NCBI RefSeq assembly: GCF_003056355.1
Contig: NZ_PYVW01000003.1
Coordinates: 62,001 to 126,000 of the forward strand
Length of the DNA stretch: 64,000 bases
From: Devosia naphthalenivorans
GTDB lineage: Bacteria; Pseudomonadota; Alphaproteobacteria; Rhizobiales; Devosiaceae
Direction of reading: 5' to 3'
Position numbers and translations under genes: made by a program. Position 1 is the stretch's first letter. Every line of letters begins with the position of its first letter. The notes beneath the pieces are model-generated. The model saw only the letters and a program-made list of their open reading frames with translations, was not told the origin of the DNA and did no database searches. Positions 1,359 to 31,421 of the stretch are shown here, piece after piece.

Positions 1359-2428
1359 ATTCCAAGTGCGTTTGTCTTCGTCATATCAGCCAGGTAGGCG
1401 CAGATGGCGGAGGCCAGGATGAAGGCGAGCCCCTGATGGCCGACGGCGAGGTCTATGTTGATCATGGACAGCAGCGTCGCGATGCCCAGCGTTACCTGGC
1501 CGACCACCAGCACGGCGATGACGCCCATCCAGCGGTGCACGCCCCCCAGCCCTGCCCCACGAATCTGGCGGAACAGCATCACGAAGGTCACGATGGTGAT
1601 GATATACGCGAGCATGCGGTGATTGAACTGCACCGTTAGGCCGTGTTCGAAGAGACTGCGCCAGGTGGGCTCGTAGGCGCCCAGCCCGTCGGGGATGAAC
1701 TTGCCTTCCATCAGCGGCCAGGTGTTGAAACCCATGCCCGCGTCGAGCCCGGCTACGAAGGCGCCGGCCGCGACCTGCAGCACCAGCAACAACAGCAGGA
1801 TGGTAACGGACGAGATATTGCCCTTGGTCACCTGCCCTTCGGTGCGATCAGGCCGCATCCGGCGGGCAACCCAGACGAGCGCCAGCAGCAGCAGCAGCGC
1901 TGCGGTCAGGTGCGCGGCAAGGCGATATTGTGAAACCGATGTCAGCTCGGTAAGGCCGGAGGAAACCATCCACCAGCCAAGTGCCCCCTGAAAGCCACCC
2001 AGCACGAACAGGCCCACCAGCGGCAGGGCCATGTCGCGCGACAGGCGGCGCTGGAACAGAAATACGAGGAAGGGAATCGCGAACGCAAAGCCGATCATGC
2101 GGCCCAGGAAGCGGTGTCCCCATTCCCACCAGAAAATGCCCTTGAAGTCCTCAAGGGTCATCCAGTGGTTGTACACTTCATACTGCGGAATGAGTTTGTA
2201 GCCCTCGAATTCGGCAATCCAGTCGGCCTGGGAAAGGGGCGGAATGATGCCAGAAACGGGCTTCCAGGTGGTGATCGACAGGCCGGACCCGGTGAGGCGC
2301 GTCATGCCGCCGACCATCACCATCACGAGCACCATAGCCGCGAGGGCATAAAGCCAGATGCGGACGGGGCGAAGCCGGTCGGTGGCGTAGCTGATCTGGC
2401 TGAGTGCGGCGTTTTGGGCGATAGTCAC
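1346..2428 (-). CDS. ctaA: Heme A synthase (Cox15/CtaA)
   Basis: This 360-residue polytopic inner-membrane protein oxidises the C8 methyl of heme O to give heme A for cytochrome c oxidase. About eight hydrophobic segments are visible. Conserved family motifs are GGMTRLTGSGLSITTWKP (about 40-57), NHWM (His88), WEWGHRFLGR (His105), AAHLTAAL (His173), FNHRMLAY (His270) and VGHQGLAF (His331). These histidines are the expected heme ligands. The length and motifs fit the alphaproteobacterial Cox15 type, which lacks the Cys pair of Gram-positive CtaA. The other cytochrome oxidase genes are not in the window. Confidence 0.95.
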   Translation of the reverse strand: MTIAQNAALSQISYATDRLRPVRIWLYALAAMVLVMVMVGGMTRLTGSGLSITTWKPVSGIIPPLSQADWIAEFEGYKLIPQYEVYNHWMTLEDFKGIFWWEWGHRFLGRMIGFAFAIPFLVFLFQRRLSRDMALPLVGLFVLGGFQGALGWWMVSSGLTELTSVSQYRLAAHLTAALLLLLALVWVARRMRPDRTEGQVTKGNISSVTILLLLLVLQVAAGAFVAGLDAGMGFNTWPLMEGKFIPDGLGAYEPTWRSLFEHGLTVQFNHRMLAYIITIVTFVMLFRQIRGAGLGGVHRWMGVIAVLVVGQVTLGIATLLSMINIDLAVGHQGLAFILASAICAYLADMTKTNALGITVK

Positions 2429-2506
2429 GGCAGTTTCCTGGTGTCGGTCGGCGACGGGGAGTGGTATGCCCGCTTACCTTATCCCGCAATAGACCCGTTG
2501 CCGCAC

Positions 2507-2710
2507 ATGACACAGCGTAACCGCAAGTTGATTGGTGTTTTCCTGATCCTGGGCTCGATCATGGCTTGGGTGTCGGTGTTCACCTCAGTTTACCTGGCTC
2601 TGCCCGCGGGCCTGCCGCCTTGGGTGCTGCTGCCTTATTTCGTGGTGGCGGGGATGGGGTGGCTGTTCCCCGCGATGTGGATTATCCGCTGGATGGCCAA
2701 GCCGGAATAG
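2507..2710 (+). CDS. DUF2842 small membrane protein
   Basis: This 67-residue protein starts at MTQRNRKLIG. A longer in-frame reading upstream was rejected because it is antisense to ctaA. It has two hydrophobic segments and ends in GMGWLFPAMWIIRWMAKPE, which matches my recollection of DUF2842, a small alphaproteobacterial membrane protein of unknown function. It stands divergently from ctaA and convergently to the deacetylase gene, with only 5 bases between stops. Confidence 0.8.
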   Translation: MTQRNRKLIGVFLILGSIMAWVSVFTSVYLALPAGLPPWVLLPYFVVAGMGWLFPAMWIIRWMAKPE

Positions 2711-2715
2711 CGCAC

Positions 2716-3756
2716 TCAGCCGGTGAGCTTGCCCATGGCCGAGAAGATCGCACCGCTAGCAAAAACATCGACATAGCGGCGGGACTGAAACAATCCGTTG
2801 AGGGAAACGCGCGGCAGAGCGTGCGGATTGGCGGCGTGGTGTGGGTAGAGCCCGCCCGGCCTTGTGGTGACGGCGGACTTGAAACCAAGCTCCCGTGCCA
2901 GGGCGAATTCGCGCTCGCCGGCCGATAGTGGACCGCCCAGCGGGTAGGAGAAATGGGCCGGCCGCTCGCCAAGCTGGGCCACAAGCACATCAGCGGATTG
3001 CTTCATTTCGCTGCGAGCATGCTCCGGGGACAGCTTCGATAATTCGTAGTGATGCACGGTGTGTGCTCCGATTGTGCACAGCGGATCTTCGGCAAAGAGG
3101 CGCACTTGCTGCCAGTCCATGATCAGATCGCGGCACTGCTTTTCGAGATCGTAGCCATAGGCAGCGGCGAAGCTGCGGACCAGCTGAACGCGATCGGCCT
3201 CCGGCATCTTGCGCATCTGCCAGTAGAGCGTGTTGAAGGCGTCGGTTTTCTCCGCCACAGTCAGCGTTTCGACGTAGTCTTTCTCGCCGTTGGTCGTCAG
3301 GGCGATCGCCTGCTGGTGGGTGATGATGTCCTCGATGGCCTGCCACCACAGCTCCCCTACCCCATCCACGAGAGCGGTGGGAACGTAGAGCGTGAACGGC
3401 GCCTCCTGCCGGTGCAGGATTGGCAGAGCGTATTCGAGATTGTCCTTATAGGCATCGTCGAAGGTCAGGACGACGAAAGGCTTGCCCTTGCCCGGCGCGG
3501 CGAGCCGCTCCAGCGCTTCATCGAGCGAAACGATATCGATACCCAGATCCCGCAGGCGCTCGATGACGTATTCGAGGAAGTCGGGTTTCACCTGAAGGAT
3601 GGCGTTGGGCGCAAAGTCCTCGGGATCATCGGGCAGGACGCGATGCAGCGTAAAGATGACACCGCGCGACTTGGACAAGGCGCGAACGAGGCCCGGCAGG
3701 CGCGAAAGCCAAAGGGCCTCGAACATGGCCCTTATGGCAGTGTATTTCAGCGACAT
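2716..3756 (-). CDS. Polysaccharide deacetylase (NodB domain)
   Basis: This 346-residue protein is a carbohydrate esterase 4-type deacetylase that would remove N- or O-acetyl groups from a polysaccharide. The NodB motif 1 is VVLTFDDAYKDN (Asp100, Asp101) and motif 2 is H-x3-H at His232 and His236 in IGAHTVHHYEL. Together these give the metal site. FSYPLGG near 270 is the next motif. No signal peptide is obvious. It lies 7 bases after the Wzz-like gene in the same direction, so it probably acts on the exopolysaccharide made by this locus, or on a precursor of it. Confidence 0.85.
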   Translation of the reverse strand: MSLKYTAIRAMFEALWLSRLPGLVRALSKSRGVIFTLHRVLPDDPEDFAPNAILQVKPDFLEYVIERLRDLGIDIVSLDEALERLAAPGKGKPFVVLTFDDAYKDNLEYALPILHRQEAPFTLYVPTALVDGVGELWWQAIEDIITHQQAIALTTNGEKDYVETLTVAEKTDAFNTLYWQMRKMPEADRVQLVRSFAAAYGYDLEKQCRDLIMDWQQVRLFAEDPLCTIGAHTVHHYELSKLSPEHARSEMKQSADVLVAQLGERPAHFSYPLGGPLSAGEREFALARELGFKSAVTTRPGGLYPHHAANPHALPRVSLNGLFQSRRYVDVFASGAIFSAMGKLTG

Positions 3757-3763
3757 GACGGCC

Positions 3764-6001
3764 TCAGGCCGCTACGCGGGCGGGAACGGCTGCGATATCG
3801 ACGTGTTTGTAGCCAAGGCCGCGCAACTGCTCACGGCAGGCGGACACTGCCCCGAAATCATCGCTGTCGCCAGCAACAAGCACTAGGCGGCTGTCCAGCC
3901 CTTCGAACATCGGCAGTGTCGAGTTGGAGCCGACTTCACCGGTCAGCACGATGACGACCTCGTAGATGTCGCTCAGGGCCTGGACGAGGGTGAGTGGCTT
4001 GTCCGAATCCGCCGGTATCGCGTCAAGCTGACCCCAGGCGATTTCGGCAAAGCTGTTGTCGGCGGATTTCTGCACCACATCGCCAAAGCTCGCCCGACCG
4101 GCGCCAAGATCGCTCAGCCCGGGCTCTTCGCCGATCCGGCCGCTGCCCGCATCCACAAGCGCGACGCTGAGGCCGCGCGACAGCGCCTCGCCGATCAGCT
4201 CTTCCGCCACTTCTTCGCAATCGGCGCTGGCGCTGTGCGCCGCCAGGACCAGCAGATGGGTGCGGCCATAGACGAGGTCTGAAGACAGTTCGGCCATTGT
4301 GGTCAATCCGGTCTCGCCCTCGATCGGCGCCACCGGAATGGGCTGAACGTGGGAGGACTGCACCGGTGCATCCGAAGCGTCGAAGTCTTCGCCCGGGATT
4401 ATATCCATCTCGTCTTGCGAGCGGGATTCAGCCAGGTCGACGACAGGCGCTAAAATCACCGGCTCGGCAAAGCTGGGTTCAGGAAGTTCTTCGGCCACGG
4501 AGGCTTCGACGGCAGGTTCTTCCCAGCGCTGATCGGGTTCGAGCTCTTCTTCGAGGAAGGGCACTTCGTCCAGTTCATCCTGCGGCCGCTCGGGCTGGCG
4601 CGCGGTGACGATGGCACGTCCGGATATCAATTCGGAGAAGGCGATCAGACCGATCTGGAGCATAATCGAAACAATGCCCACGGCCACCAACACCAGCTGG
4701 ACCTTGGGGGACGCGGGTGACACCGATGGCGCGGCAACGCTGACGACGCGCACGTCCGGCAGCGCCGAATTGGTTTCGGTGCGGGAGAAAGCTTCGTTGT
4801 AGCGCTGCAGATAGCCTTCGAGCAGGTCCCGCTGCGCCTTGGCTTCGCGCTCAAGGCCATCAAGCGTCACAGTGTCCTGCGTTGCCGTGGAGGCCGTGGT
4901 CTTGGCGTCGGACAGATTGGCCTGCAGCGAAACCTGCAGATCGGCCTCGATCTGCGCCTCGGCATCCAGGGCATCGGCGACGCGGCGGCCTTCGATGGCG
5001 ATCTGGTTATCGAGCTCGGCGATCTGGGCGTTGAGGGCGCGGATTGTCGGATGGTTCGCCAGCAGCGTGGCCGAACGCTGGGCCCTCTCGCCCTGGAGGC
5101 GTGCCTTGTCTTCGCCCAGCCGCTGGATCACAGCCGAGTTGCGCACATCAGGAACGCTCTCGATCGATTGTCCGCGCTCGAGCATGCCCCGGATCAGGGC
5201 CGCGCGAGAAGCCGCAGAGTTCTGGCGCTCCTGGGCGGCGCTGATCTGCGAGGCGATGGTGGACATCTGCTGATCGGGCAGGCTGGTATTGCTGGAGCCG
5301 ATAAAGAGGTCATTGTTGACCTTGAAATTGGCAACGGCAGTTTCCGCCTCGTTGACCACGACGCGCAGCCGTTCGATTTCGGTACCCAGCCAACCCGAGG
5401 CTGTGGCGGTGTCGGAAAGCGACAGCTCTGCGCGGCGGGTGACGTGGGCATTGGCGACGGCGTTGGCGATCTCGGCGGCGCGCTGAGGATCGGTAGAGCT
5501 GACAACGACGGAGACAATGCGGGAATCGCGCGCCTGCGAAACCGTCATGGCGTCATAGAGATTATTGAGGACGATCTCATCGATGCTGACGGGCGCGGCC
5601 TTCCTGCCCAGTATCTGGCTGAGTACGCCGAGAGGCGAAAAGCCACCATCGCCGGAACCGTTGAACTCGGACACCGAGCGCAGGTCGAGCCGGTCGATCA
5701 CCCGCAACAGGGTATCGCGCGACTTGATAAGCTCGATCTGGCTGGAAACGACACCGGCCTCGTTGCCGGACAGCGTGGGAGCCTGCTCGTTGGTGCCACG
5801 CGTATAGATATTGCCGCGCGGCTCGACGAGAATCGATGCCGTGGATTCATAGAGCCGCGGCGAGAACATCAGCAGGACGTACGCCGCCGCCACCAGAGCC
5901 AGCGTCACCAGTATGATGCGCGGCAGCCGCCGCACCACGGCCCCAAGCAGCGCCCCTATATCGATGCGCGTGTCCTGCACGGATGGCGACTCATATGACA
6001 T
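3764..6001 (-). CDS. Wzz/GumC-type polysaccharide co-polymerase with degenerate kinase-like C-terminus
   Basis: This 745-residue inner-membrane protein probably sets exopolysaccharide chain length. The start MSYESPSVQD was chosen because GAGGGAAG precedes it; an in-frame upstream ATG has no such site. Membrane segments lie at about 29-46 and 435-455. A long coiled-coil-rich periplasmic domain (about 200-400) and the Pro-rich Wzz signature near 426-433 are present. An acidic cytoplasmic linker (about 470-555) leads to a P-loop-kinase-like domain (580-745). Where BY-kinases have Walker A, this protein has AAHSASADC with no Gly-Lys-Ser/Thr. The next motif is LVDAGS, and no C-terminal Tyr cluster is present. 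It therefore looks like a Wzc/ExoP-type protein whose kinase half has lost ATP binding. Confidence 0.88.
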   Translation of the reverse strand: MSYESPSVQDTRIDIGALLGAVVRRLPRIILVTLALVAAAYVLLMFSPRLYESTASILVEPRGNIYTRGTNEQAPTLSGNEAGVVSSQIELIKSRDTLLRVIDRLDLRSVSEFNGSGDGGFSPLGVLSQILGRKAAPVSIDEIVLNNLYDAMTVSQARDSRIVSVVVSSTDPQRAAEIANAVANAHVTRRAELSLSDTATASGWLGTEIERLRVVVNEAETAVANFKVNNDLFIGSSNTSLPDQQMSTIASQISAAQERQNSAASRAALIRGMLERGQSIESVPDVRNSAVIQRLGEDKARLQGERAQRSATLLANHPTIRALNAQIAELDNQIAIEGRRVADALDAEAQIEADLQVSLQANLSDAKTTASTATQDTVTLDGLEREAKAQRDLLEGYLQRYNEAFSRTETNSALPDVRVVSVAAPSVSPASPKVQLVLVAVGIVSIMLQIGLIAFSELISGRAIVTARQPERPQDELDEVPFLEEELEPDQRWEEPAVEASVAEELPEPSFAEPVILAPVVDLAESRSQDEMDIIPGEDFDASDAPVQSSHVQPIPVAPIEGETGLTTMAELSSDLVYGRTHLLVLAAHSASADCEEVAEELIGEALSRGLSVALVDAGSGRIGEEPGLSDLGAGRASFGDVVQKSADNSFAEIAWGQLDAIPADSDKPLTLVQALSDIYEVVIVLTGEVGSNSTLPMFEGLDSRLVLVAGDSDDFGAVSACREQLRGLGYKHVDIAAVPARVAA

Positions 6002-6152
6002 CGGCTTCCCTCGATTACTTGGAAGACTTATGCCGCGGCGTGGTAAGCAATCCGTTAACCCTGTTGCGGGCGCAATAATACAACGGTCACGGAAGGGAAT
6101 TATTAACCATAGATGGAGAGACTGCACACGTTCTCAAACGCGCGGGATTTCA

Positions 6153-6704
6153 ATGCGCTGGTTTCCGATTCTCACGATCATCCTGACCTTGCCGCTGGCC
6201 GCCTGCGCGAGCACGCGCCCGGCGACCTATCTGGTCGAAACCAAGGGGCCCTACCAGCTCGATACCGGGGACACGGTTCGCGTCAGCGTCTATGGCGACC
6301 AGGACTTGAGCAACACCTATCGGGTCGATGACAGCGGCGCGATTGCGTTTCCGCTGGTCGGGCCGGTTCAGGTGCGTGGCACAACCACCAAGATGGCCGC
6401 GTCGCGGCTGGCGGGGGCTCTCGCCAATGGCTATATGCGCAGCCCAGACGTTGCCGTCGAGATCGCCGAGTATCGCCCCTTCTTCATCCAGGGTGAAGTC
6501 GGCAATTCGGGACAGTTCCCCTATGTGCACGGCATGACGGTGCGCTCCGCCATCAGCGTGGCGGGCGGCTTTTCCGACACTGCGGACCGCGACCAGGCCA
6601 TCGTCTATCGCCGCCAGGGCGAGCAGATGGTCAAGGGCAGCGTCGATCTCGACTTCCCCATTTTCCCCGGTGACACCATCGTCGTGCAGGAACGCTGGTT
6701 CTGA
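6153..6704 (+). CDS. Polysaccharide export lipoprotein (Wza/ExoF family, short)
   Basis: This 183-residue protein has a lipoprotein signal with lipobox LAAC (Cys18). A Poly_export domain follows, with YQLDTGDTVRVSVYGDQDLS and the region around VDDSGAIAFPLVGPVQV. An SLBB-like segment contains FFIQGEVGNSGQFPYVHGMTV and the end has FPGDTIVVQERWF. It should form or contact the outer-membrane exit for the polysaccharide. It is much shorter than E. coli Wza, as is usual for rhizobial-type proteins. It is divergent from the Wzz-like gene and 11 bases before the GT4 gene, so those two form an operon. The start was chosen to give the lipoprotein signal. Confidence 0.9.
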   Translation: MRWFPILTIILTLPLAACASTRPATYLVETKGPYQLDTGDTVRVSVYGDQDLSNTYRVDDSGAIAFPLVGPVQVRGTTTKMAASRLAGALANGYMRSPDVAVEIAEYRPFFIQGEVGNSGQFPYVHGMTVRSAISVAGGFSDTADRDQAIVYRRQGEQMVKGSVDLDFPIFPGDTIVVQERWF

Positions 6705-6715
6705 CGGAGTAAGCA

Positions 6716-7849
6716 ATGCCCGGCAAGCTTCGCATCCTGCAGGTCATGCGGTCGCCGGTTGGCGGGCTGTTCCGCCACGTCGCAGACCTGACGCGCGAGC
6801 TTGCTGCGCACGGGCATGAGGTGGGGCTTGTCGTCGACAGCCTCGCCAATGACGCACAAACCGAAAGCCGGCTGACCGCCCTGCTGCCGCATGCCCAATT
6901 GGGCATTCACCGCTATGCCATGCCGCGTGTGCTGGGCAAAGGCGATCTGGTTACCCCCCTGGCTGTGCGCAAGCTCGCTCGCTCGCTCGACATCGACGTA
7001 CTGCATGGCCATGGCGCCAAGGGAGGCTTTTATGCCCGCCTGGCGCGCCTGGGCGGCGGCAAGAGCGTCGCGCTTTATACGCCGCATGGCGGCGTGCTGC
7101 ATTTCAGCAAGTCGTCTGCTTCGGGACGGGTGTTTCACCTGCTTGAGCGCTGGCTGATGGTCCAGACGGCGGCAATCATCTTTGAAAGCCAATATGCCAA
7201 GACGACCTATGCCAGCCTGATCGGCGCGCCCACCTGCCCTGCCGAGGTCATCTATAATGGCCTGCAGCCGGAGGAATTCGAGCCGGTAGCACCAGGAGAG
7301 GACACTGCCGATTTCGTTTTCGTGGGCGAGTTGCGTGACCTCAAGGGCATCCACATTTTGGTGGAGGCGCTCGCCGGGGTGAGCCGCCGCGACGGAGCGG
7401 GCGCAACATTGGTGATGGCGGGCGATGGTGGCGCCAGGGATGCCCTGACCGATCAGATCAACCGGCTTGGCCTGAACGAGCGCGTGCGGCTGCTGGGCGC
7501 CCAGCCGGCGCGCCCTACATTTGCCAAGGGGCGAATTGCAGTGGTGCCGTCACTGGCGGAGTCCCTGCCCTATATCGTACTCGAGGCCGCCGCCGCGCGC
7601 TTGCCGGTGATCTCGACACGCGTGGGTGGAATTCCGGAGATATACGGGCCGACGACGCATGGTCTGGTGCCGGCAAGCGACGTGGTGGCGCTACGCACTG
7701 CGATGCAAAAGGCGCTGGATAATCCCGAGGCGGCGCAGGCGGAAATGCAGCAGAGGCTTGCGTATATTTTCGAGCACTTTGCGGTCGGGCAGATGGTCTC
7801 CCGCATTGAGGCATTATATTTTGCAGCGCTTGGTCGTTTGAAGGCTTAG
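6716..7849 (+). CDS. Glycosyltransferase family 4
   Basis: This 377-residue protein has two Rossmann domains (GT-B fold). It starts KLRILQVMRSPVGGLFRHVADL, an N-terminal acceptor domain with a Gly-rich loop, and contains HGHGAKGGFYARL at about 100. The C-terminal donor domain carries VFVGELRDLKGIHILVEAL and SLAESLPYIVLEAAAARLPVI, the E-x7-E region of retaining GT4 enzymes. It probably adds one sugar to the lipid-linked repeat unit in the cytoplasm. It is the only non-priming glycosyltransferase seen here. The sugar specificity cannot be read from the sequence. Confidence 0.9.
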   Translation: MPGKLRILQVMRSPVGGLFRHVADLTRELAAHGHEVGLVVDSLANDAQTESRLTALLPHAQLGIHRYAMPRVLGKGDLVTPLAVRKLARSLDIDVLHGHGAKGGFYARLARLGGGKSVALYTPHGGVLHFSKSSASGRVFHLLERWLMVQTAAIIFESQYAKTTYASLIGAPTCPAEVIYNGLQPEEFEPVAPGEDTADFVFVGELRDLKGIHILVEALAGVSRRDGAGATLVMAGDGGARDALTDQINRLGLNERVRLLGAQPARPTFAKGRIAVVPSLAESLPYIVLEAAAARLPVISTRVGGIPEIYGPTTHGLVPASDVVALRTAMQKALDNPEAAQAEMQQRLAYIFEHFAVGQMVSRIEALYFAALGRLKA

Positions 7850-7971
7850 CGATAGCGGGCTTTGTGCCTGGGGGCCCTTCGAGACCTTCAAGGCGTGCAA
7901 CCCTAACCCAGAATTGCTTCCTCCGGCAGGTGCTCCGGGGTCTCTCGTCGCTTGTGCCGGGGGGAGAGTGG

Positions 7972-7992
7972 CCCTCGGGTCGAGCCCGAGGG
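7972..7992. repeat. REP-like GC palindrome, copy 1
   Basis: CCCTCGGG (7972-7979), a 5-base loop and CCCGAGGG (7985-7992). The flanks GAGTGG before and GAA after are shared, in inverse orientation, with the copy at 61809-61829. This is consistent with a dispersed REP-type element. Confidence 0.65.
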
Positions 7993-8033
7993 AAGCACGG
8001 TGGGGGGTGAGAGATAGGTGGGTCGTTGGCCGG

Positions 8034-8084
8034 CTTGGATCATTGGTCGTCTTGGATCGTTGATCGCCTTGGATCGTTGATCGC
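8034..8084. repeat. Tandem repeat, three 17-base units
   Basis: CTTGGATCGTTGATCGC occurs twice exactly (8051-8067 and 8068-8084). A third copy with three mismatches lies directly before it (8034-8050). It is non-coding, about 160 bases upstream of the priming transferase gene. Confidence 0.75.
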
Positions 8085-8245
8085 CTTTGTCGTGGCGACG
8101 CGCGATGCGCTCCGCAAGATTACTTACGGAAGGCCGGTGCTTACTTTTTTGTACTTGCACTCGGCAAATCTTGAGACGTCAACTTCATCGAGTGTAAACC
8201 CCTTGGCCCGACAATGCCGGCACGATTTCGTACCGGTAACCGCCA

Positions 8246-9769
8246 ATGTTTCGCGTCGATCCCCAGCAGGCTGTCCTCGATCACGTCGCCAAGCAGACGG
8301 CAACGGGGGCGGAAGAACATGCTCTTTCCCCGGAAGCTGAAGCCATTATTGCAGCGCCGGTTGAGTCGACATTATCCGGCGCCGTCGTCGTCGGTGTTGC
8401 GCAGGCCGTCGAGGCCGCGCTACTGGCGGCGCTCGGCTATGGAATCTATAAATACTATGTGTCGCTGGGCGCACCCGAATTCTACCTGCCGGTCATTCTC
8501 TCGGCGAGCCTGCTGGCCAATGTCCTGTTCAATGCCGCCCGCACCCACCGCATAGCCGCCTATCGCACCGTGTTCGTGCAGCTCGGTCGCGTCCTTGGCG
8601 CCTGGACCATCGTGATGGCGCTGCTTGCCGTCGGCATCTTCTTTTTCAAGGCCGCCGACCTGTTCTCCCGGCTATGGCTGGCGAGCTGGTTTGTGGGCGG
8701 TGCCGTGCTGCTGGTGGCATACCGGCTGGCGCTGCGCGCGCTGGTACAGCGCTGGACCGCGCAGGGCCGGTTGCGGCGGCGCACGGCCATCGTCGGCGGG
8801 GGCAAGGACGCCGAAGCGCTGATCGAGCAGATTCGGGCCAGCGCCAGCAACGACATTGCCATGCTGGGCCTGTTCGACGACCGCTTCGATGACCGCTCGC
8901 CCGAACAGGTCTCTGGCCTGCCCAAGCTCGGCAAGGTGGCCGATCTCACCGAATTCGCGCGGCGTACGCCGGTGGATCTGGTGATCGTTTCCATGCCGCT
9001 ATCGGCTGAAAAACGCGTGCTGGACATGCTGACCCAGCTTTGGGTGCTGCCCGTCGACATCCGGCTGTCGGCGCATATGAGCAAGCTCAAGTTCACCCAC
9101 CGGGCCTATTCCTATGTGGGCGATCTGGCCGTGTTCGATATGGCCGACCGGCCGATTTCGGACTGGAACCTGGTCTTCAAATGGCTGTTCGACAAGGTCG
9201 TGGCGTTGACCGCGCTGATCCTGCTGTCGCCCATCATGATCGTCACGGCCATTGCCATCACGCTCGAGAGCCGCGGCCCGGTGTTCTTCATGCAGAACCG
9301 GCACGGCTTCAACAATGAGCTGATCAAGATCTACAAATTCCGCTCGATGCGCACGGACTCGGCCGATGCGGGCGCGGCGAAGCTGGTGACCAAGGGCGAT
9401 CCGCGCGTGACCCGGGTTGGCCGCTTCATCCGCAAGACTTCGATCGACGAATTGCCGCAGCTGTTCAACGTGCTCAAGGGTGAACTCTCCATCGTCGGAC
9501 CCCGCCCTCATGCGCTGCAGGCCAAGGCCGCAAACCAGCTCTATTATGATGCCGTGGAAGGCTATTTCGCCCGCCACCGGGTCAAGCCCGGCATGACCGG
9601 CTGGGCCCAGATCAACGGCTGGCGCGGCGAGACCGACACCATCGACAAGATCATGCAGCGCGTGAACCACGACCTCTACTACATCGATCACTGGTCGATC
9701 CTGTTCGATCTCTACATCGTGGCCATGACGCCGGTGTCGCTGGTGGCCAAGAACGAGAACGCATACTGA
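8246..9769 (+). CDS. Undecaprenyl-phosphate sugar phosphotransferase (WcaJ/ExoY family)
   Basis: This 507-residue inner-membrane enzyme should start repeat-unit synthesis by moving a sugar-1-phosphate, often glucose, from UDP-sugar to undecaprenyl phosphate. About four membrane segments lie between 45 and 165. A nucleotide-binding-like CoA_binding_3 domain follows, with [20 protein letters not shown]. After another membrane segment comes the catalytic Bac_transf domain with [33 protein letters not shown] and [15 protein letters not shown]. It is followed after two bases by the next gene. The ribosome-binding site before the chosen ATG is weak, so the N-terminus is less certain. Confidence 0.93.
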
Positions 9770-27018: not shown

Positions 27019-27726
27019 TTACCGTTTGGTCAGCGCTTGCATTTCGGCTGCATCAAGAATTGGCGCACTCGCGCCGATTTCCGCAAGGTAGGTGTCCAGC
27101 ACGGCAAGACCAGAAGCCGTGCGATAGCCATCGTCGCCCTGCCCGGTCGCGACGGCCATCGTGACCTGCCACTGTGTCGCTTCGCGGCAGGCGACCATGG
27201 CATAGCCAGGCAGCTCAAATTCCCGGCATAGTATGCCTGACTGATCGGTAAAGGTCGCGACGGCATGCAACTGACGCCCATCGGTCAGCGCATAGTCGGC
27301 GCCTGACGGAACCGTGTCGAGGGCCGCCTGCAATTGGGACTGGTCAAGCCCGCCAAGAATGCCGGTGGCGGGCGTCTGCAGCGCTGGAAGCACCACGACC
27401 ACTGCCGCAACGGCGGCGGTGGCGCCAACTAGCGGAAACAACCAGGCCCAGTTCCATCGAGTGGCCGCAGAGCGCTTGCGCTCCTGGCGCGTGATCATGG
27501 CCTTGACCGATGCTTCCAGTTCCGGCGACACCGGCTGCAGCAGCGGGGCAAAGCCTTGCCGAGCCAGCGCCGCGCCATCGACCAGTTGCTCCAGCCGGGC
27601 CGCCAGGGCGGGGTCACCATCGACAGCCTCGGCGACCGCCGAAAACAGCGGCTCATCCAGCATGCCATCGGCAAAGGCCATCAGAGTTTCGTCGGAATAG
27701 TGGGCCGTCATGCCTTCGTCCTTCAT
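27019..27726 (-). CDS. Membrane anti-sigma factor
   Basis: This 235-residue protein starts at an ATG overlapping the sigma-factor stop (ATGA), which indicates coupled synthesis. A cytoplasmic N-terminal part with YSDETLMAFADGMLDE (about 10-25) resembles the sigma-binding domain of anti-sigma factors but lacks the zinc HxxxCxxC motif. One membrane segment lies at about 94-114. The C-terminal periplasmic part has two cysteines (Cys167 in LCREFE and Cys180 in ACREA) that could form a disulfide or sense a signal. It should hold the neighbouring ECF sigma factor until a periplasmic signal releases it. Confidence 0.85.
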   Translation of the reverse strand: MKDEGMTAHYSDETLMAFADGMLDEPLFSAVAEAVDGDPALAARLEQLVDGAALARQGFAPLLQPVSPELEASVKAMITRQERKRSAATRWNWAWLFPLVGATAAVAAVVVVLPALQTPATGILGGLDQSQLQAALDTVPSGADYALTDGRQLHAVATFTDQSGILCREFELPGYAMVACREATQWQVTMAVATGQGDDGYRTASGLAVLDTYLAEIGASAPILDAAEMQALTKR

Positions 27727-28223
27727 AGCAATTGCCCCGCTTCGATGCCGATATCCTCGGCCAGCTTGCGGCGCGCGCGGGCCAACCGGCTCATCACCGT
27801 GCCGATCGGCAGGTCGAGCACTTCGGCGGCGTCCCGATAGGTAAGCTCCTCGACGCAAACCAGCAGCAGCAATTCGCGCTGCTCCGCCGGCAGGCGACCG
27901 ATGGCCTGCATGGTCTGCTTCAGCATCAGGCGGTTTTCGGGGATGCTGGTACCGTCAAAGGCGCCGATCTCGCTGTGCTCGACAATGTCGATCTCCTCGC
28001 CGCGCGTCCGCTGGCGGCGCAGACGGTCGATCCAGCTATTGCGCAGGATGCGGAACATCCAGGCGTCAAAGGAGACATCCAGCGTCTGGCGCTGGCTGGA
28101 AAGTGCCTTTTCACAGGCGACCTGGACCAGGTCGTCGGCTGTGTCGGCCACCTTGCACAGCGCCAGCGCATAGCGGCGCAGGCGGGGCAGCATGGGAATC
28201 AAGCTGGTTGCAATCGTGCTCAT
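27723..28223 (-). CDS. ECF-type RNA polymerase sigma factor
   Basis: This 166-residue protein has only regions 2 and 4. Region 2 includes ADTADDLVQVACEKAL and FDAWMFRILRNSWIDRLRR. Region 4 includes RLPAEQRELLLLVCVEELTYRDAAEVL and the recognition helix segment PIGTVMSRLARARRKL. It should direct RNA polymerase to the GGAATA-N15-CGTCT sites in this cluster, including one in front of itself. That site lies so close to the ATG that the message would be nearly leaderless; initiation at Met11 is an alternative. The length is normal for ECF factors. Confidence 0.95.
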   Translation of the reverse strand: MSTIATSLIPMLPRLRRYALALCKVADTADDLVQVACEKALSSQRQTLDVSFDAWMFRILRNSWIDRLRRQRTRGEEIDIVEHSEIGAFDGTSIPENRLMLKQTMQAIGRLPAEQRELLLLVCVEELTYRDAAEVLDLPIGTVMSRLARARRKLAEDIGIEAGQLL

Positions 28224-28232
28224 GCAGGGTAA

Positions 28233-28257
28233 GACGGCCCGGTGCGTGGTCTATTCC
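28233..28257 (-). promoter_or_regulatory. ECF promoter candidate for the sigma/anti-sigma operon
   Basis: On the minus strand GGAATA (-35) and CGTCT (-10) are separated by 15 bases, ending 9 bases before the sigma-factor ATG. The GGAAT...CGTC pattern is the general ECF style. The same 11 fixed bases occur in three other places in this cluster. Confidence 0.8.
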
Positions 28258-28285
28258 CCAGCCGTCGCATTTTATTCTGCAAGAT

Positions 28286-28310
28286 GGAATAGTTCCTGAC
28301 GTCACACGTC
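28286..28310 (+). promoter_or_regulatory. ECF promoter candidate for the subtilase gene
   Basis: GGAATA-N15-CGTCT on the plus strand, with GGAAT at 28286-28290 and CGTC at 28307-28310, lies about 35 bases before the protease ATG. It is back to back with the sigma-factor promoter. Confidence 0.82.
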
Positions 28311-28344
28311 TGCCTCCACGAGACAATTCACGGGAGACCTTTTC

Positions 28345-29652
28345 ATGCCGCCTTGGCCCCGCACCACAATGCGCGCTTTGCTCATAGCCATGGGGCTCGT
28401 CGCCCTGCCGCCATTGCTCTCGTCACCATGGCTCGTCGGCACTGCCTGGGCGCAGGATGATGACGACGATGACGATGACGACGACGATTACGGCTCCGAC
28501 AGTGATGACAGTGACGATGATGATGATGACGAGTGGACCGGCGGTTATGTCTTCGGCCGGCGTGCGCCAGCGCCGGTGCCGGTGCCGGTTGTCGTGCTGC
28601 CGGACCAGGCCGATGACCAGATCGTAGTGGAGCGGTTGGACGGCGCCGGGCGGCAAAGTCTCATCGCTCAAGGCTTCTCGGTGCTTGGCGAAAGCGAGGA
28701 GCGGCTGCTGCTGCAATTGCCGGACGATCTGGACGTGCCGGCGGCACTCGAAGCCGTGCGGCTCGCAGCCCCAGCGGCCCTGGCCGGGCCCAACAGCTAC
28801 TATCGCAGCCAGGCCGTGCCCGAAGGATGCGAGGGCGCCATCTGCGCCCATTGGGATGCGGTCAGCTGGCCACCTGTATCGGTCGAACCGCTGTGCCGGT
28901 TCGAACCGACCATCGGGGTGGTCGACACCGGCGTCAATCTCGAACACGACATGCTCTCCGATGCCCGGCTGACGCTCCAAACCATTGGCAGCGCCGGCAC
29001 CGAGCCGTCCGAGCTCAAACACGGTACGGCGGTCGTGGCCCTGTTTGTCGGGGATGCGGCAAGCCGCGTTCCGGGCCTGGCGCCGGCAGCCAACTTGCTG
29101 GTGGTCGATCCTTTTGGACGGGTCGGGACGGATGAGCGCAGCGATGTGTTCGCCTTGGCAGAGGCGCTGGACCGGTTGGGCGGGGCCGGCGTGGACGTCG
29201 CGAACCTGAGCCTCGCCGGACCTGACAATCCAGTTCTGGCCGCGGCGGTGCAGCGCTTGCAGGCGGCCGGCATTCCATTGGTGGCGGCTGTGGGCAATGC
29301 TGGCCCGCGAGCGGCGCCGCTGTTTCCGGCGGCTTATCCCGATGTCGTGGCGGTAACGGCGGTGGATGGACGCGCCAATATCTACCGCCGGGCGGTGCAG
29401 GGCGAACATGTAAGCTTTGCCGCGCCCGGGGTCGGGATTTCGACCGCCGCCTCCATTTCCGGCGTTCGGCCGCAGACAGGAACTTCGTTCGCTGTCCCCT
29501 TCGTCACCACCGCCCTGGCTGCGGCCATGGCCCAAGGCGCGCCGGTTGCCGACGCGCTCGATGCGCTGACCCAAACCAGCAGGGATCTAGGCGAGCCCGG
29601 CCGTGATCCAGTGTTCGGCTGGGGCCTCGTGCAGATACCGTCGCCCTGCTAG
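28345..29652 (+). CDS. Secreted S8-family serine protease with poly-Asp segment
   Basis: This 435-residue protein is a subtilisin-like protease. A signal peptide ends near AWA-QDDD. It is followed at once by an Asp-rich stretch (about 38-62) with up to eleven Asp in a row, then a Pro/Val linker. All catalytic residues are visible: Asp194 in IGVVDTGVN, His226 in KHGTAV, oxyanion Asn318 in AAVGNAG and Ser381 in GTSFAVP. The segment from about 90 to 180 may be a pro-domain. GGGAG precedes the chosen ATG. The poly-Asp tract could bind calcium or keep the protein soluble or surface-bound. It is preceded by an ECF-type promoter. Confidence 0.92.
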   Translation: MPPWPRTTMRALLIAMGLVALPPLLSSPWLVGTAWAQDDDDDDDDDDDYGSDSDDSDDDDDDEWTGGYVFGRRAPAPVPVPVVVLPDQADDQIVVERLDGAGRQSLIAQGFSVLGESEERLLLQLPDDLDVPAALEAVRLAAPAALAGPNSYYRSQAVPEGCEGAICAHWDAVSWPPVSVEPLCRFEPTIGVVDTGVNLEHDMLSDARLTLQTIGSAGTEPSELKHGTAVVALFVGDAASRVPGLAPAANLLVVDPFGRVGTDERSDVFALAEALDRLGGAGVDVANLSLAGPDNPVLAAAVQRLQAAGIPLVAAVGNAGPRAAPLFPAAYPDVVAVTAVDGRANIYRRAVQGEHVSFAAPGVGISTAASISGVRPQTGTSFAVPFVTTALAAAMAQGAPVADALDALTQTSRDLGEPGRDPVFGWGLVQIPSPC

Positions 29653-29658
29653 GGCCAA

Positions 29659-29788
29659 TCGACATTCATCTCAGGATTAGCCGAAAATGGTGGTTTTCGA
29701 GCACCGGCCCGCAGCGTACGTTTAGGTACGTGAGGACCGGAAGCGCAGAAGACTACCATTTTGCAGGCCAAGCATCAGTGAATGTCGA
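29659..29788. repeat. Long imperfect inverted repeat, MITE or RIME-like
   Basis: A 130-base palindrome between two convergent genes. The outer arms TCGACATTCA (29659-29668) and TGAATGTCGA (29779-29788) are perfect. Inner matches include AAAATGGT/ACCATTTT and an ACCGG/CCGGT block, with a GTAC...GTAC centre. The arms pair along most of about 60 bases. It fills almost the whole gap and could fold the end of either transcript. Confidence 0.75.
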
Positions 29789-29794
29789 CCGGCG

Positions 29795-30499
29795 CTAGCG
29801 GGCGGCACGGGCGAAGCGGCGATACCAGCCGGGACTGGCCAGCGTGTTGCGGAACACCGATCGCCGTTCGGCCGCTTCAACCACATTCTCGGCGCCAATC
29901 TGGGCCTCGATTTGGGTCGAGGCGCGCTCGAAGGGAATGACCTGCACCAACGGGGTGCCCTTTTCGATCTCATGCAATCCGTCCGGGCCATGGGCGAAGA
30001 ACGGAAAGTGGATCGGCGCGACATAGCTATCGGTGTCGACAATGCCGGCGACCGGCTCGAACAGCGGATTGGTGCGGTTGAGCAGCGGCACGAAAAGGCA
30101 ACTCCAGCCCTTGGGGGTGCGGATCGACCAGTAATTGTGAAACTTGCACGGGGGCAGTGCGCTGCGGGGATTGCCCGCCACCTGGTGGCTGCCATGGTTG
30201 GAAACCATGGTCTTGTCGAAATCCCAGCCCGCCGTCACCGTCTGTCCATCATTGCTGATATCGAGCCGCACGGTCGCGGCGAGCGGGATGATGTAACCCG
30301 TCATCATGGCGTCGAGGAACGGCATGCAGCGCTTGACGGTGAGGCCGGTATCGTTGGGGCTGACCTTGGCTGGATCGACCGCTGGAAGTTTGCGAAACCA
30401 GTCCGGCAAATGCGTCTTTGACAACACGGGCGGCGCGATAACGCCCTCGTCTTCCGGTGAACAAAGAAAGCGGATGATCGGCTTGGGCCGGGCAAACAT
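29795..30499 (-). CDS. DUF6065 family protein
   Basis: This 234-residue protein starts at MFARPKPIIRFLCSPEDEG. Longer in-frame readings upstream were rejected because the ECF-type promoter lies inside them. Conserved-looking segments are LPDWFRKLPA, TVKRCMPFLDAMMTGYIIPLA, CKFHNYWSIRTPKGWSCLFV, VDTDSY and PLVQVIPFERA. I recall this pattern as DUF6065, a family without assigned function. There is no signal peptide or membrane segment, so it should be cytoplasmic, unlike the other products of the cluster. Many Trp, His and Cys residues suggest an enzyme or metal protein, but this is speculation. Confidence 0.7.
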   Translation of the reverse strand: MFARPKPIIRFLCSPEDEGVIAPPVLSKTHLPDWFRKLPAVDPAKVSPNDTGLTVKRCMPFLDAMMTGYIIPLAATVRLDISNDGQTVTAGWDFDKTMVSNHGSHQVAGNPRSALPPCKFHNYWSIRTPKGWSCLFVPLLNRTNPLFEPVAGIVDTDSYVAPIHFPFFAHGPDGLHEIEKGTPLVQVIPFERASTQIEAQIGAENVVEAAERRSVFRNTLASPGWYRRFARAAR

Positions 30500-30533
30500 G
30501 GCGACATCTCCATAGCGGGTCTCGTCAGCAGCA

Positions 30534-30558
30534 GACGCACCGGCTCCGGATTTATTCC
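30534..30558 (-). promoter_or_regulatory. ECF promoter candidate for the DUF6065 gene
   Basis: On the minus strand GGAATA-N15-CGTCT, with CGTC at 30537-30534, ends about 35 bases before the DUF6065 ATG. It has the same spacing and fixed bases as the other three sites. Confidence 0.8.
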
Positions 30559-30582
30559 TTCGGCGAGGCTGAAAAATTCTGC

Positions 30583-30607
30583 GGAATAGTTTTGGTCCCC
30601 ATCCGTC
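30583..30607 (+). promoter_or_regulatory. ECF promoter candidate for the Ser/Asn-rich gene
   Basis: On the plus strand GGAATA-N15-CGTCT (GGAAT 30583-30587, CGTC 30604-30607) lies 46 bases before the ATG. It is divergent from the site at 30534-30558. Confidence 0.82.
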
Positions 30608-30653
30608 TTGCTGTGTGGAGCGGCACTGCTCCGCAAGCTGAAAGGAAAGCCCA

Positions 30654-31073
30654 ATGGGTAAAACCATCACGATAACCACACTGGCGATTGCCGGCATGAT
30701 GGCTGCCAACGCGCCTGCCCAGGCCTATGGCGTCGTCGATCCGCAGCCGCAGGCTGTCGCAGGCGAAACCATGCTCGTCGCCGATTCGCGTTGGAGCAAG
30801 CGGGTCTACGACCAGCGCAACAACACCTGGTCCGGCAGTTCAAGCAATTCGAACTCGAACTCGAACTCCAATTCGAACAGCAATTCGAGTTCCAACGGCT
30901 CGTCCAATTCGAGTTCCAATAGCTCATCCAATTCGAGTTCCAATAGCTCATCCAATTCGAACTCAAACAGCTCTTCGAATTCGAGCAGCAACTCATCGTC
31001 CAATTCGAGCAGCAATTCCTCATCGAACTCCAGCTCGAACTCATCGTCCAACTCGTCCGACGGTGACGATTGA
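30654..31073 (+). CDS. Secreted Ser/Asn-repeat protein
   Basis: This 139-residue protein has a signal peptide ending at APAQA-YGV, a short middle part (about 25-60, with SRWSKRVYDQRNNTWSG) and a tail of about 75 residues made almost only of Ser and Asn, mostly as (SSSN)n, ending SDGDD. The DNA of the tail is itself repetitive, with one 24-base unit occurring twice in a row at 30903-30950. Such tails are disordered or prion-like and may form fibres or act as a spacer. AAAGGAAAG is the ribosome-binding site. I do not recognise a family. It is likely cotranscribed with the Asp-rich peptide gene. Confidence 0.82.
   Translation: MGKTITITTLAIAGMMAANAPAQAYGVVDPQPQAVAGETMLVADSRWSKRVYDQRNNTWSGSSSNSNSNSNSNSNSNSSSNGSSNSSSNSSSNSSSNSSSNSNSNSSSNSSSNSSSNSSSNSSSNSSSNSSSNSSDGDD
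30838..31065 (+). repeat. In-frame low-complexity repeat coding Ser/Asn
   Basis: Short units built from AAC/AAT and TCG/TCC/AGC/AGT codons repeat in frame. The clearest is a perfect 24-base tandem pair at 30903-30926 and 30927-30950. Such DNA can change length by slippage without losing the frame. Confidence 0.8.
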
Positions 31074-31099
31074 GCCCTCGAACAACGAAAGGACAGACC

Positions 31100-31378
31100 A
31101 TGACCAGATATCTCAAGACCACCGCCGCCGCCCTGGCCCTGCTGATGGCCGGCACCAGCCTCAGCATGGCGCTCGAGGTCGAAACGCTGCCGGGCAAGCC
31201 AGTTGTCGCTGACAAGGTCACGATCCTTGTCGCCGATGACGATGACGATCGCCGTTCCTGGTCGCACAAGTCCGGCCCGCGCTGGTACGATGACCGTGAC
31301 GATGATGACGACGACGACCGTTGGGACGACGACGATGACGATCGCTGGGAAGACGATGACGATGGTGACGACGACTAA
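31100..31378 (+). CDS. Secreted Asp-rich acidic peptide
   Basis: This 92-residue protein starts at MTRYLKTTAAA after GAAAGGACAG. A signal peptide ends near SMA-LEV. After a short spacer with VVADKVTILVA, the C-terminal half is extremely acidic, with runs of five to seven Asp broken by Arg-Trp pairs (DDRW twice and RWYDD), and ends in GDDD. Poly-Asp with spaced aromatics suggests calcium binding or charge-based contact with a basic partner. It lies 26 bases after the Ser/Asn-rich gene and shares the poly-Asp theme with the upstream protease. The family is unknown to me. Confidence 0.82.
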   Translation: MTRYLKTTAAALALLMAGTSLSMALEVETLPGKPVVADKVTILVADDDDDRRSWSHKSGPRWYDDRDDDDDDDRWDDDDDDRWEDDDDGDDD

Positions 31379-31395
31379 TCGCCGTCTATCCAAAA

Positions 31396-31421
31396 CAGGC
31401 ACCCACTCGCGTGGGTGCCTG
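31396..31421 (+). terminator. Strong stem-loop ending the low-complexity-protein operon
   Basis: A perfect 11-base inverted repeat CAGGCACCCAC/GTGGGTGCCTG (loop TCGC) begins 18 bases after the Asp-rich gene stop. There is no T-run after it, so it may be a processing or weak termination signal. Confidence 0.6.

Follow-up and report, generated by a model that had tools for sequence, protein, structure and literature searches.

The stretch analyzed here, hereafter the window, comprises 64,000 nucleotides of Devosia naphthalenivorans contig NZ_PYVW01000003.1 (positions 62,001 to 126,000), from an assembly of 4,488,200 bases in 55 contigs. A compact locus within it combines genes for an extracytoplasmic function (ECF) sigma factor and an anti-sigma factor, an S8 subtilase with a poly-Asp tract, a DUF6065-like protein, a protein with Ser/Asn tetrad repeats (hereafter the SN protein) and an Asp-rich peptide, all of them behind predicted promoters of the form GGAATA-N15-CGTCT (Table 1). 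This inventory of parts, as given in a preliminary description of the same DNA, holds on the evidence of Pfam and of the sequences themselves. The anti-sigma, SN-repeat and Asp-rich products have no match in the Pfam scan. The closest named homologues found for the locus, such as P0015 of Devosia riboflavina (81%), point to Devosia. The locus is very probably the counterpart of the RpoE6/EcfR6-type ECF26 regulon of Sinorhizobium meliloti. The type of regulon is thus already known from Sinorhizobium, and it contains an unstudied pair, the SN-repeat and DUF6065-like proteins.

Table 1. Genes and predicted promoters of the locus, in window coordinates
Feature	Position	Strand	Characteristics and basis
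Anti-sigma factor, EcfR6-like	27019..27726	-	sigma-binding part at the N-terminus, one apparent transmembrane segment; Cys168 and Cys181 in the presumed periplasmic domain
ECF sigma factor, RpoE6-like	27723..28223	-	Sigma70_r2/r4_2; 57% to RpoE6; group ECF26 by resemblance
GGAATA-N15-CGTCT, predicted promoter of sigma/anti-sigma operon	28232..28257	-	exact scan; also in G029
GGAATA-N15-CGTCT, predicted promoter of S8 protease gene	28286..28311	+	exact scan
S8 subtilase	28345..29652	+	signal-like N-terminus, poly-Asp tract (D11), D/H/S catalytic motifs; PF00082, E 1.6e-24
DUF6065-like protein, dUTPase-like fold (predicted model), without signal-like N-terminus	29795..30499	-	
GGAATA-N15-CGTCT, predicted promoter of DUF6065-like gene	30533..30558	-	exact scan
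GGAATA-N15-CGTCT, predicted promoter of SN-repeat/Asp-rich operon	30583..30608	+	exact scan
SN-repeat protein	30654..31073	+	signal-like N-terminus followed by a linker, (SSSN/SNSN)n tetrads and an acidic end; sequence, homologues
Asp-rich peptide	31100..31378	+	signal-like N-terminus; apparently one operon with SN gene; from sequence

The exact scan of both strands of the window recovered four GGAATA-N15-CGTCT matches, each located in the correct orientation before one of the four transcription units, while dinucleotide-preserving shuffles (n = 100) contained 0.01 matches on average and never as many as four. These are the four sites that the preliminary description had reported; their existence and orientation stand, whereas its starts for the minus-strand sites and its ends for the plus-strand sites were one base off. 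When up to two mismatches are allowed the window has 13 matches where 10 would be expected on average, and hence only the exact set is meaningful. The whole genome contains five exact matches, and the motif, with a single match outside the locus, is near-exclusive to it. The first base of this fifth match coincides with the third base of what is probably the start codon of a permease-like open reading frame (ORF; MEYWILFGV...), which we take to be of the TRAP type, and near-identical versions of it occur, among the matches listed, in more than 10 same-genus genomes that lack the locus. In the single-contig genome of a congener (G029), all four exact matches fall at the orthologous locus, which also preserves the gene order. 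A chance motif is thus ruled out by the shuffles and by the whole-genome and same-genus scans. The earlier proposal of a self-contained ECF regulon is borne out by the near-exclusivity of the sites, the conservation of the arrangement and the fit of the motif to the ECF26 consensus. The CGTCT box ends 33 bases before the start codon of both the S8 and DUF6065-like genes and 45 bases before that of the SN gene, and by inspection purine-rich stretches, representing candidate ribosome sites, precede the ATGs of these three genes. No such stretch was seen before the sigma gene, where the box ends 8 bases from the ATG, implying a very short leader, or none, for the sigma operon.

A scan of a genome collection with the DUF6065-like alignment returned 144 relatives, of which the best 80 loci were kept for comparison; distant DUF6065 members are consequently under-represented. 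In these loci GGAATA-N14-16-CGT is found 298 times, as against 9 times for the reversed pattern. A site of this type, mostly with a spacer of 15, lies upstream of the DUF6065 gene in 74 of the 80 loci, of the SN gene in 71 of 75 and of the S8 gene in 51 of 59. A sigma gene is visible in 58 loci, an anti-sigma gene likewise in 58 and an S8 gene in 59. For the 22 loci without a visible sigma gene, 21 genomes were searched (L075, whose contig begins shortly before its anti-sigma gene, was omitted), and 16 of these encode an RpoE6 homologue (58-77%) elsewhere.

The parallel with S. meliloti is close. According to the excerpted text of PMC6180224, rpoE6, of group ECF26, lies divergent from the gene of the serine protease SMa0142, an arrangement its authors describe as widely conserved in this group, and over-expression of RpoE6 raised SMa0139, SMa0142, SMa0146, SMa0148 and ecfR6 among about 40 genes in total, with log fold changes of 6.5 for SMa0148 and 4.7 for SMa0142 (its Table 1). 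SMa0142 is also listed in a peptidase screen (PMC8175422). Identity between the Devosia and S. meliloti proteins is 57% for the sigma factor, 33% for the anti-sigma factor, 44% for the S8 protease and 69% for the DUF6065-like protein. When the mapped promoters are placed on pSymA (NC_003037.1, L059), that of SMa0142 falls directly upstream of the S8 gene and that of SMa0148 directly upstream of the DUF6065-like gene; this position suggests that SMa0148, in a part of the record that is unannotated, is the DUF6065-like gene. On the plus strand of the same record, between the anti-sigma gene and the DUF6065 gene, an SN-repeat gene follows a GGAATA-N15-CGT site at 8313, and the gene order indicates that it is probably SMa0146. 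The claim of the preliminary description that no described system combines these parts is therefore contradicted by the RpoE6/EcfR6 regulon (PMC6180224), which shares with the Devosia locus the sigma and anti-sigma genes, the divergent S8 gene with an Asp run, the DUF6065-like and SN genes and the GGAATA-type promoters. Rhizobium leguminosarum 248 likewise has the S8, sigma, anti-sigma, DUF6065 and SN genes in one cluster. The Devosia version differs in adding the Asp-rich peptide after the SN gene, in having the exact motif before the sigma gene, and in its CGTCT box where the mapped S. meliloti promoters of SMa0142, SMa0148 and ecfR6 have CGTT; the S. meliloti regulon in turn has a glyoxylase-family target, SMa0139, besides. 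The ECF26 consensus of -35 GGAATA and -10 GT (PMC6180224) is found at the Devosia target genes, and given the experimentally observed activation of homologous genes in S. meliloti, the Devosia promoters may be expected to work in the same way.

Several points weigh against this equation. The Devosia sigma factor is placed in ECF26 by its resemblance to RpoE6 and not by a group-specific hidden Markov model: among the NCBIfam matches listed (the best 25 of 94), only the superfamily model TIGR02937 scores above its cut-off. The GGAATA-type pattern precedes the sigma gene in just 10 of 58 loci, and in S. meliloti the rpoE6 gene is preceded by a promoter of RpoD/RpoH-like type (PMC6180224), so that autoregulation of the sigma gene through this motif is not general. 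Five of the 21 genomes searched (L064, L116, L141, L082 and L093) yielded no close RpoE6 homologue; an S8 piece is present in L064. As for function, Lang et al. rule out significant roles of the S. meliloti ECF sigma factors in surviving envelope-disrupting agents, in the excerpted text of PMC6180224, which speaks against the envelope response suggested in the preliminary description, and rpoE6, in contrast to the related rpoE1 and rpoE4, was not induced by sulfite-generating compounds, as stated from preliminary data not shown in the excerpted text of PMC3511301. The latter study (Bastiat et al. 2012) concerns the RpoE1/RpoE4 sulfite response of S. meliloti, whose sigma factors belong to the same group ECF26 but control the sulfite dehydrogenase SorT; its excerpted text mentions no S8, DUF6065 or SN genes (PMC3511301). 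On the other side, an RpoE6 query against the Devosia genome retrieved the locus sigma factor as the best of its matches (57%, E 2e-51), ahead of the next of six (41%, 4e-29).

The anti-sigma factor shows 33% identity to S. meliloti EcfR6 over 253 aligned positions, and its NCBIfam matches are weak and below cut-off. An EcfR6 search of two Sinorhizobium genomes found one match in each, the EcfR6 homologue, and did not retrieve EcfR1 and EcfR4 for comparison; near four other ECF sigma genes of the Devosia genome (L217-L220), a regular-expression look revealed no comparable anti-sigma gene. The transmembrane segment of the locus anti-sigma factor was read by eye from the sequence. Past this apparent segment lie Cys168 and Cys181, which are common to 70 of 71 anti-sigma homologues, and this placement together with their near-invariance suggests a disulfide. 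By analogy with the family, the membrane-anchored anti-sigma factor would keep the sigma factor at rest until a signal from outside the inner membrane frees it, with a thiol/disulfide signal being the first guess because the Cys pair is near-invariant in the sensor domain. Once free, the sigma factor would transcribe, from the GGAATA-N15-CGTCT sites, its own operon and three further units, which encode the S8 protease with its Asp tract, the DUF6065-like protein, and the SN and Asp-rich proteins.

All 58 sigma-bearing loci among the 80 also have the S8 protease, which favours a link of the protease to the sigma/anti-sigma pair. Its Asp tract recurs in homologues: 60 of the 62 assessed have at least 6 Asp per 12 residues ahead of the catalytic motif (11 of 73 proteins could not be assessed by the motif used). 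An S8 match (E <= 1e-15) was found in 24 of 101 relatives, of which 18 have no SN-linked DUF6065 gene, although other subtilases may account for some of the weaker matches. We examined 11 S8 loci of non-Devosia relatives, and nine of them also contain a sigma gene (G088, G083, G095, G069, G093, G098, G068, where the two are about 2.5 kb apart, and both loci of G064); none was seen in the two loci of G062, on inspection of the locus only. A Paracoccus locus similarly has only the sigma, anti-sigma and S8 genes. Plasmids also carry such genes, with an S8 match in 130 plasmid records and a DUF6065 match in 104, the majority from Sinorhizobium. These patterns bear on the notion, already raised in the preliminary description, that the protease processes the acidic and Ser/Asn-rich proteins, and on the variants that it degrades them or clips the anti-sigma factor as feedback. 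Co-regulation and apparent co-export of the S8, SN and Asp-rich proteins would fit it, as would the constant presence of S8 with the sigma gene. Since the sigma/S8 module is common without SN and DUF6065 genes, the repeats cannot be a general S8 substrate; conversely, the SN/DUF6065 pair occurs in L082 and L093 without an RpoE6-like sigma factor above 44% identity. We therefore reject a protease dedicated to the repeats, find the processing claim unsupported and regard this family of explanations as improbable. A fifth Devosia copy of the locus (L039 of G039, 1525-8308) has frame breaks that split its sigma, DUF6065-like and S8 genes, and its SN gene lies about 3 kb from the S8 gene; this copy may be decaying, or its assembly may contain indel errors.

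The SN and DUF6065-like genes are closely associated. A composition rule identified an SN ORF in 75 of the 80 loci, and a looser look added L071 and L080 (the latter with a stop), giving 77 of 80; the SN gene lies within 1 kb of the DUF6065 gene in 76 of these and 3.1 kb away in L074. In the genomes of the remaining three loci (L092, L127 and L133; the contigs of the first two end near the DUF6065 match), an SN gene stands beside an RpoE6-like sigma gene elsewhere (L231, L230 and L224, respectively). When the rule was tightened to require four perfect tetrads, SN genes were found in 69 of the 80 loci, as against none of 30 canonical DUF6065 loci, none of 24 dUTPase loci, none of 10 other S8 loci and 5 of 38 sigma or anti-sigma loci, the five being L231, L230 and L224 and two Sinorhizobium EcfR6 loci (L222, L223). 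The 873,441 bases of the same contigs lying more than 2 kb from the DUF6065 gene contain a single SN gene, that of L074. In 297 genomes of the order drawn regardless of SN genes, we found seven genomes, D. naphthalenivorans included, with DUF6065 proteins of the SN-linked type (at least 58% identity) and three with a distant type (33-35%); an SN gene adjoins the DUF6065 gene in all seven and in none of the three. The SN gene of one of the seven, G525, was missed by the regular expression, but the record is identical letter for letter to L069, where the ORF was found. The six SN-type genomes searched all carry an S8 gene, as does D. naphthalenivorans itself. Among the 101 relatives a DUF6065 match (E <= 1e-10) occurs in seven, one of which (G072) is of the distant type, and among 61 same-genus genomes the S8 and DUF6065-like genes co-occur in the identical five (G000, G029, G039, G047 and G055).

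The best indication that the two genes are directly linked in function comes from L082, which is from Dongia, and L093, in which the pair persists without an RpoE6-like sigma factor. In both, the SN gene is followed by the DUF6065 gene on the same strand, at a distance of 75 bases in L082, forming an apparent operon; no GGAATA-type promoter was found in either locus and no RpoE6-like sigma factor above 44% identity in either genome. One explanation is that the DUF6065-like protein acts in the cytosol as a dedicated partner that modifies or chaperones the SN protein. This pair rather than the protease would then form the working core of the system, with the sigma factor only scheduling it. The near-inseparability of the two genes and the highly conserved residues in the DUF6065-like alignment argue for such a partnership, while modification or binding of the SN protein has left no direct sign, peptide modification is not known to us from any protein with a dUTPase fold, and canonical DUF6065 genes lack an SN neighbour, indicating that the fold has another use too. 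We consider the explanation a tentative but real possibility.

The DUF6065-like protein owes its qualified name to its PF19541 score, 19.8 bits against a gathering cut-off of 26.6, although many of its close homologues bear the Pfam DUF6065 label. Its predicted model displays a dUTPase fold. A first AlphaFold model from 17 close sequences had a predicted local distance difference test (pLDDT) score of 48, and hhalign comparisons with dUTPases were weak (probability 6.7-6.9%), with the alignment in register at motifs 3 and 4. Motif 5 of the dUTPases, RGxGGFGSTG, is absent from its sequence, and an alignment of the SN-linked DUF6065 proteins does not show it at their C-termini either. The genome encodes a separate canonical dUTPase which carries this motif at its C-terminus, and on that ground we reject the DUF6065-like protein as the dUTPase of the cell. 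A sequence search of solved structures returned nothing convincing, a literature search on DUF6065 found no paper, and the neighbours of canonical DUF6065 genes are mixed (10 neighbours in 10 loci scanned). An uncharacterised protein of uncultured tailed phages (BFVD A0A6J7WVY4) matches the model at 30% identity, suggesting that the family probably has phage members.

The SN proteins themselves have a hydrophobic N-terminus (read by eye) and a linker that varies, followed by tetrads whose second residue is Ser and whose fourth is Asn; many of the proteins end in DDDD. As the tract is a simple repeat, it could in principle be a DNA microsatellite devoid of meaning at the protein level. Codon variation contradicts this: in the longest uniform tetrad run of seven SN genes measured, the 12-mers encoding the constant peptide are all different in six (7/7 in the window, 11/11 in G029, 6/6 in G055, 5/5 in L077, 3/3 in L089 and 6/6 in L110), the exception being L098 with 8 of 19 distinct. 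SN homologues are moreover conserved across several alphaproteobacterial genera, and a microsatellite origin thus appears extremely improbable. A literature search on the repeat strings found 8 papers containing one of them, and judged by title none concerns such proteins.

A more specific version of the partnership would treat the pair as a two-gene system not yet described: the dUTPase-fold protein, in the cytosol, would modify the exported (SSSN)n chain, for example with a nucleotide-derived group, or escort it, usually under an ECF26 sigma factor with an anti-sigma disulfide switch. This would resemble the Sec-exported ribosomally synthesized and post-translationally modified peptides (RiPPs), with an enzyme fold and a repeat substrate that are both new, and in this detailed form we deem it unlikely. 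Bufferin-type RiPPs, as described in the excerpted text of PMC12452194, offer a possible parallel, in that they comprise small exported proteins with Sec-type signal peptides and a modifying enzyme, with sigma factor genes in the clusters, but their enzyme is an MNIO (DUF692) and their precursors mostly have Cys motifs, in contrast to the dUTPase-like fold and the Ser/Asn repeat of Devosia. Since PF19541, below cut-off, is the sole Pfam match of the DUF6065-like protein and its model is dUTPase-like, a canonical MNIO RiPP is rejected, and the likeness would concern a possible mode of action rather than membership.

As regards the role of the regulon as a whole, we can offer a weak guess, which is rather doubtful: the exported acidic and Ser/Asn-rich disordered chains might bind a cationic, metal or reactive agent beyond the inner membrane or protect against it, with the DUF6065-like protein serving the SN protein and the protease clearing damaged or spent chains. 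The likeliest signal might be an insult from beyond the membrane, either thiol-reactive or cationic/metal in nature, which these chains would meet, a suggestion that is equally uncertain. The RpoE6 regulon of Sinorhizobium has been mapped while its signal and role are unexplained, and the Devosia locus presents the gene set in a compact, uncluttered form, highlighting the anti-sigma Cys pair, a probably exported tetrad-repeat protein and its near-inseparable partner of dUTPase-like fold. If this pair were enzyme and substrate, it would represent a novel type of peptide modification and account for an orphan response, one also found on many rhizobial plasmids.

Asp-rich peptides that look exported are also encoded in G029, L063, L114, L121 and L126, with a GGAATA-type site before the peptide gene or its operon, and such a peptide is thus a putative recurrent member of the regulon. 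Those of three rhizobial loci (L114:4732-5016, L126:3344-3565 and L121 near 4760-5014) lie several kb away from the SN gene, each behind a predicted GGAATA-type promoter of its own. The SN proteins of Bauldia (L068, L069 and L106) have an extra tail, LGFGAGxxDGVxGPxTRAAIxRFQ, which presumably resembles a peptidoglycan-binding repeat and, if it is one, would tie these proteins to the cell wall. In strain LMB1 (NZ_CP141214.1, L060:7925-8317), the annotated "hypothetical protein" WP_324764754.1 is an opposite-strand reading of the SN gene, and SN genes may often be mis-annotated in this way.

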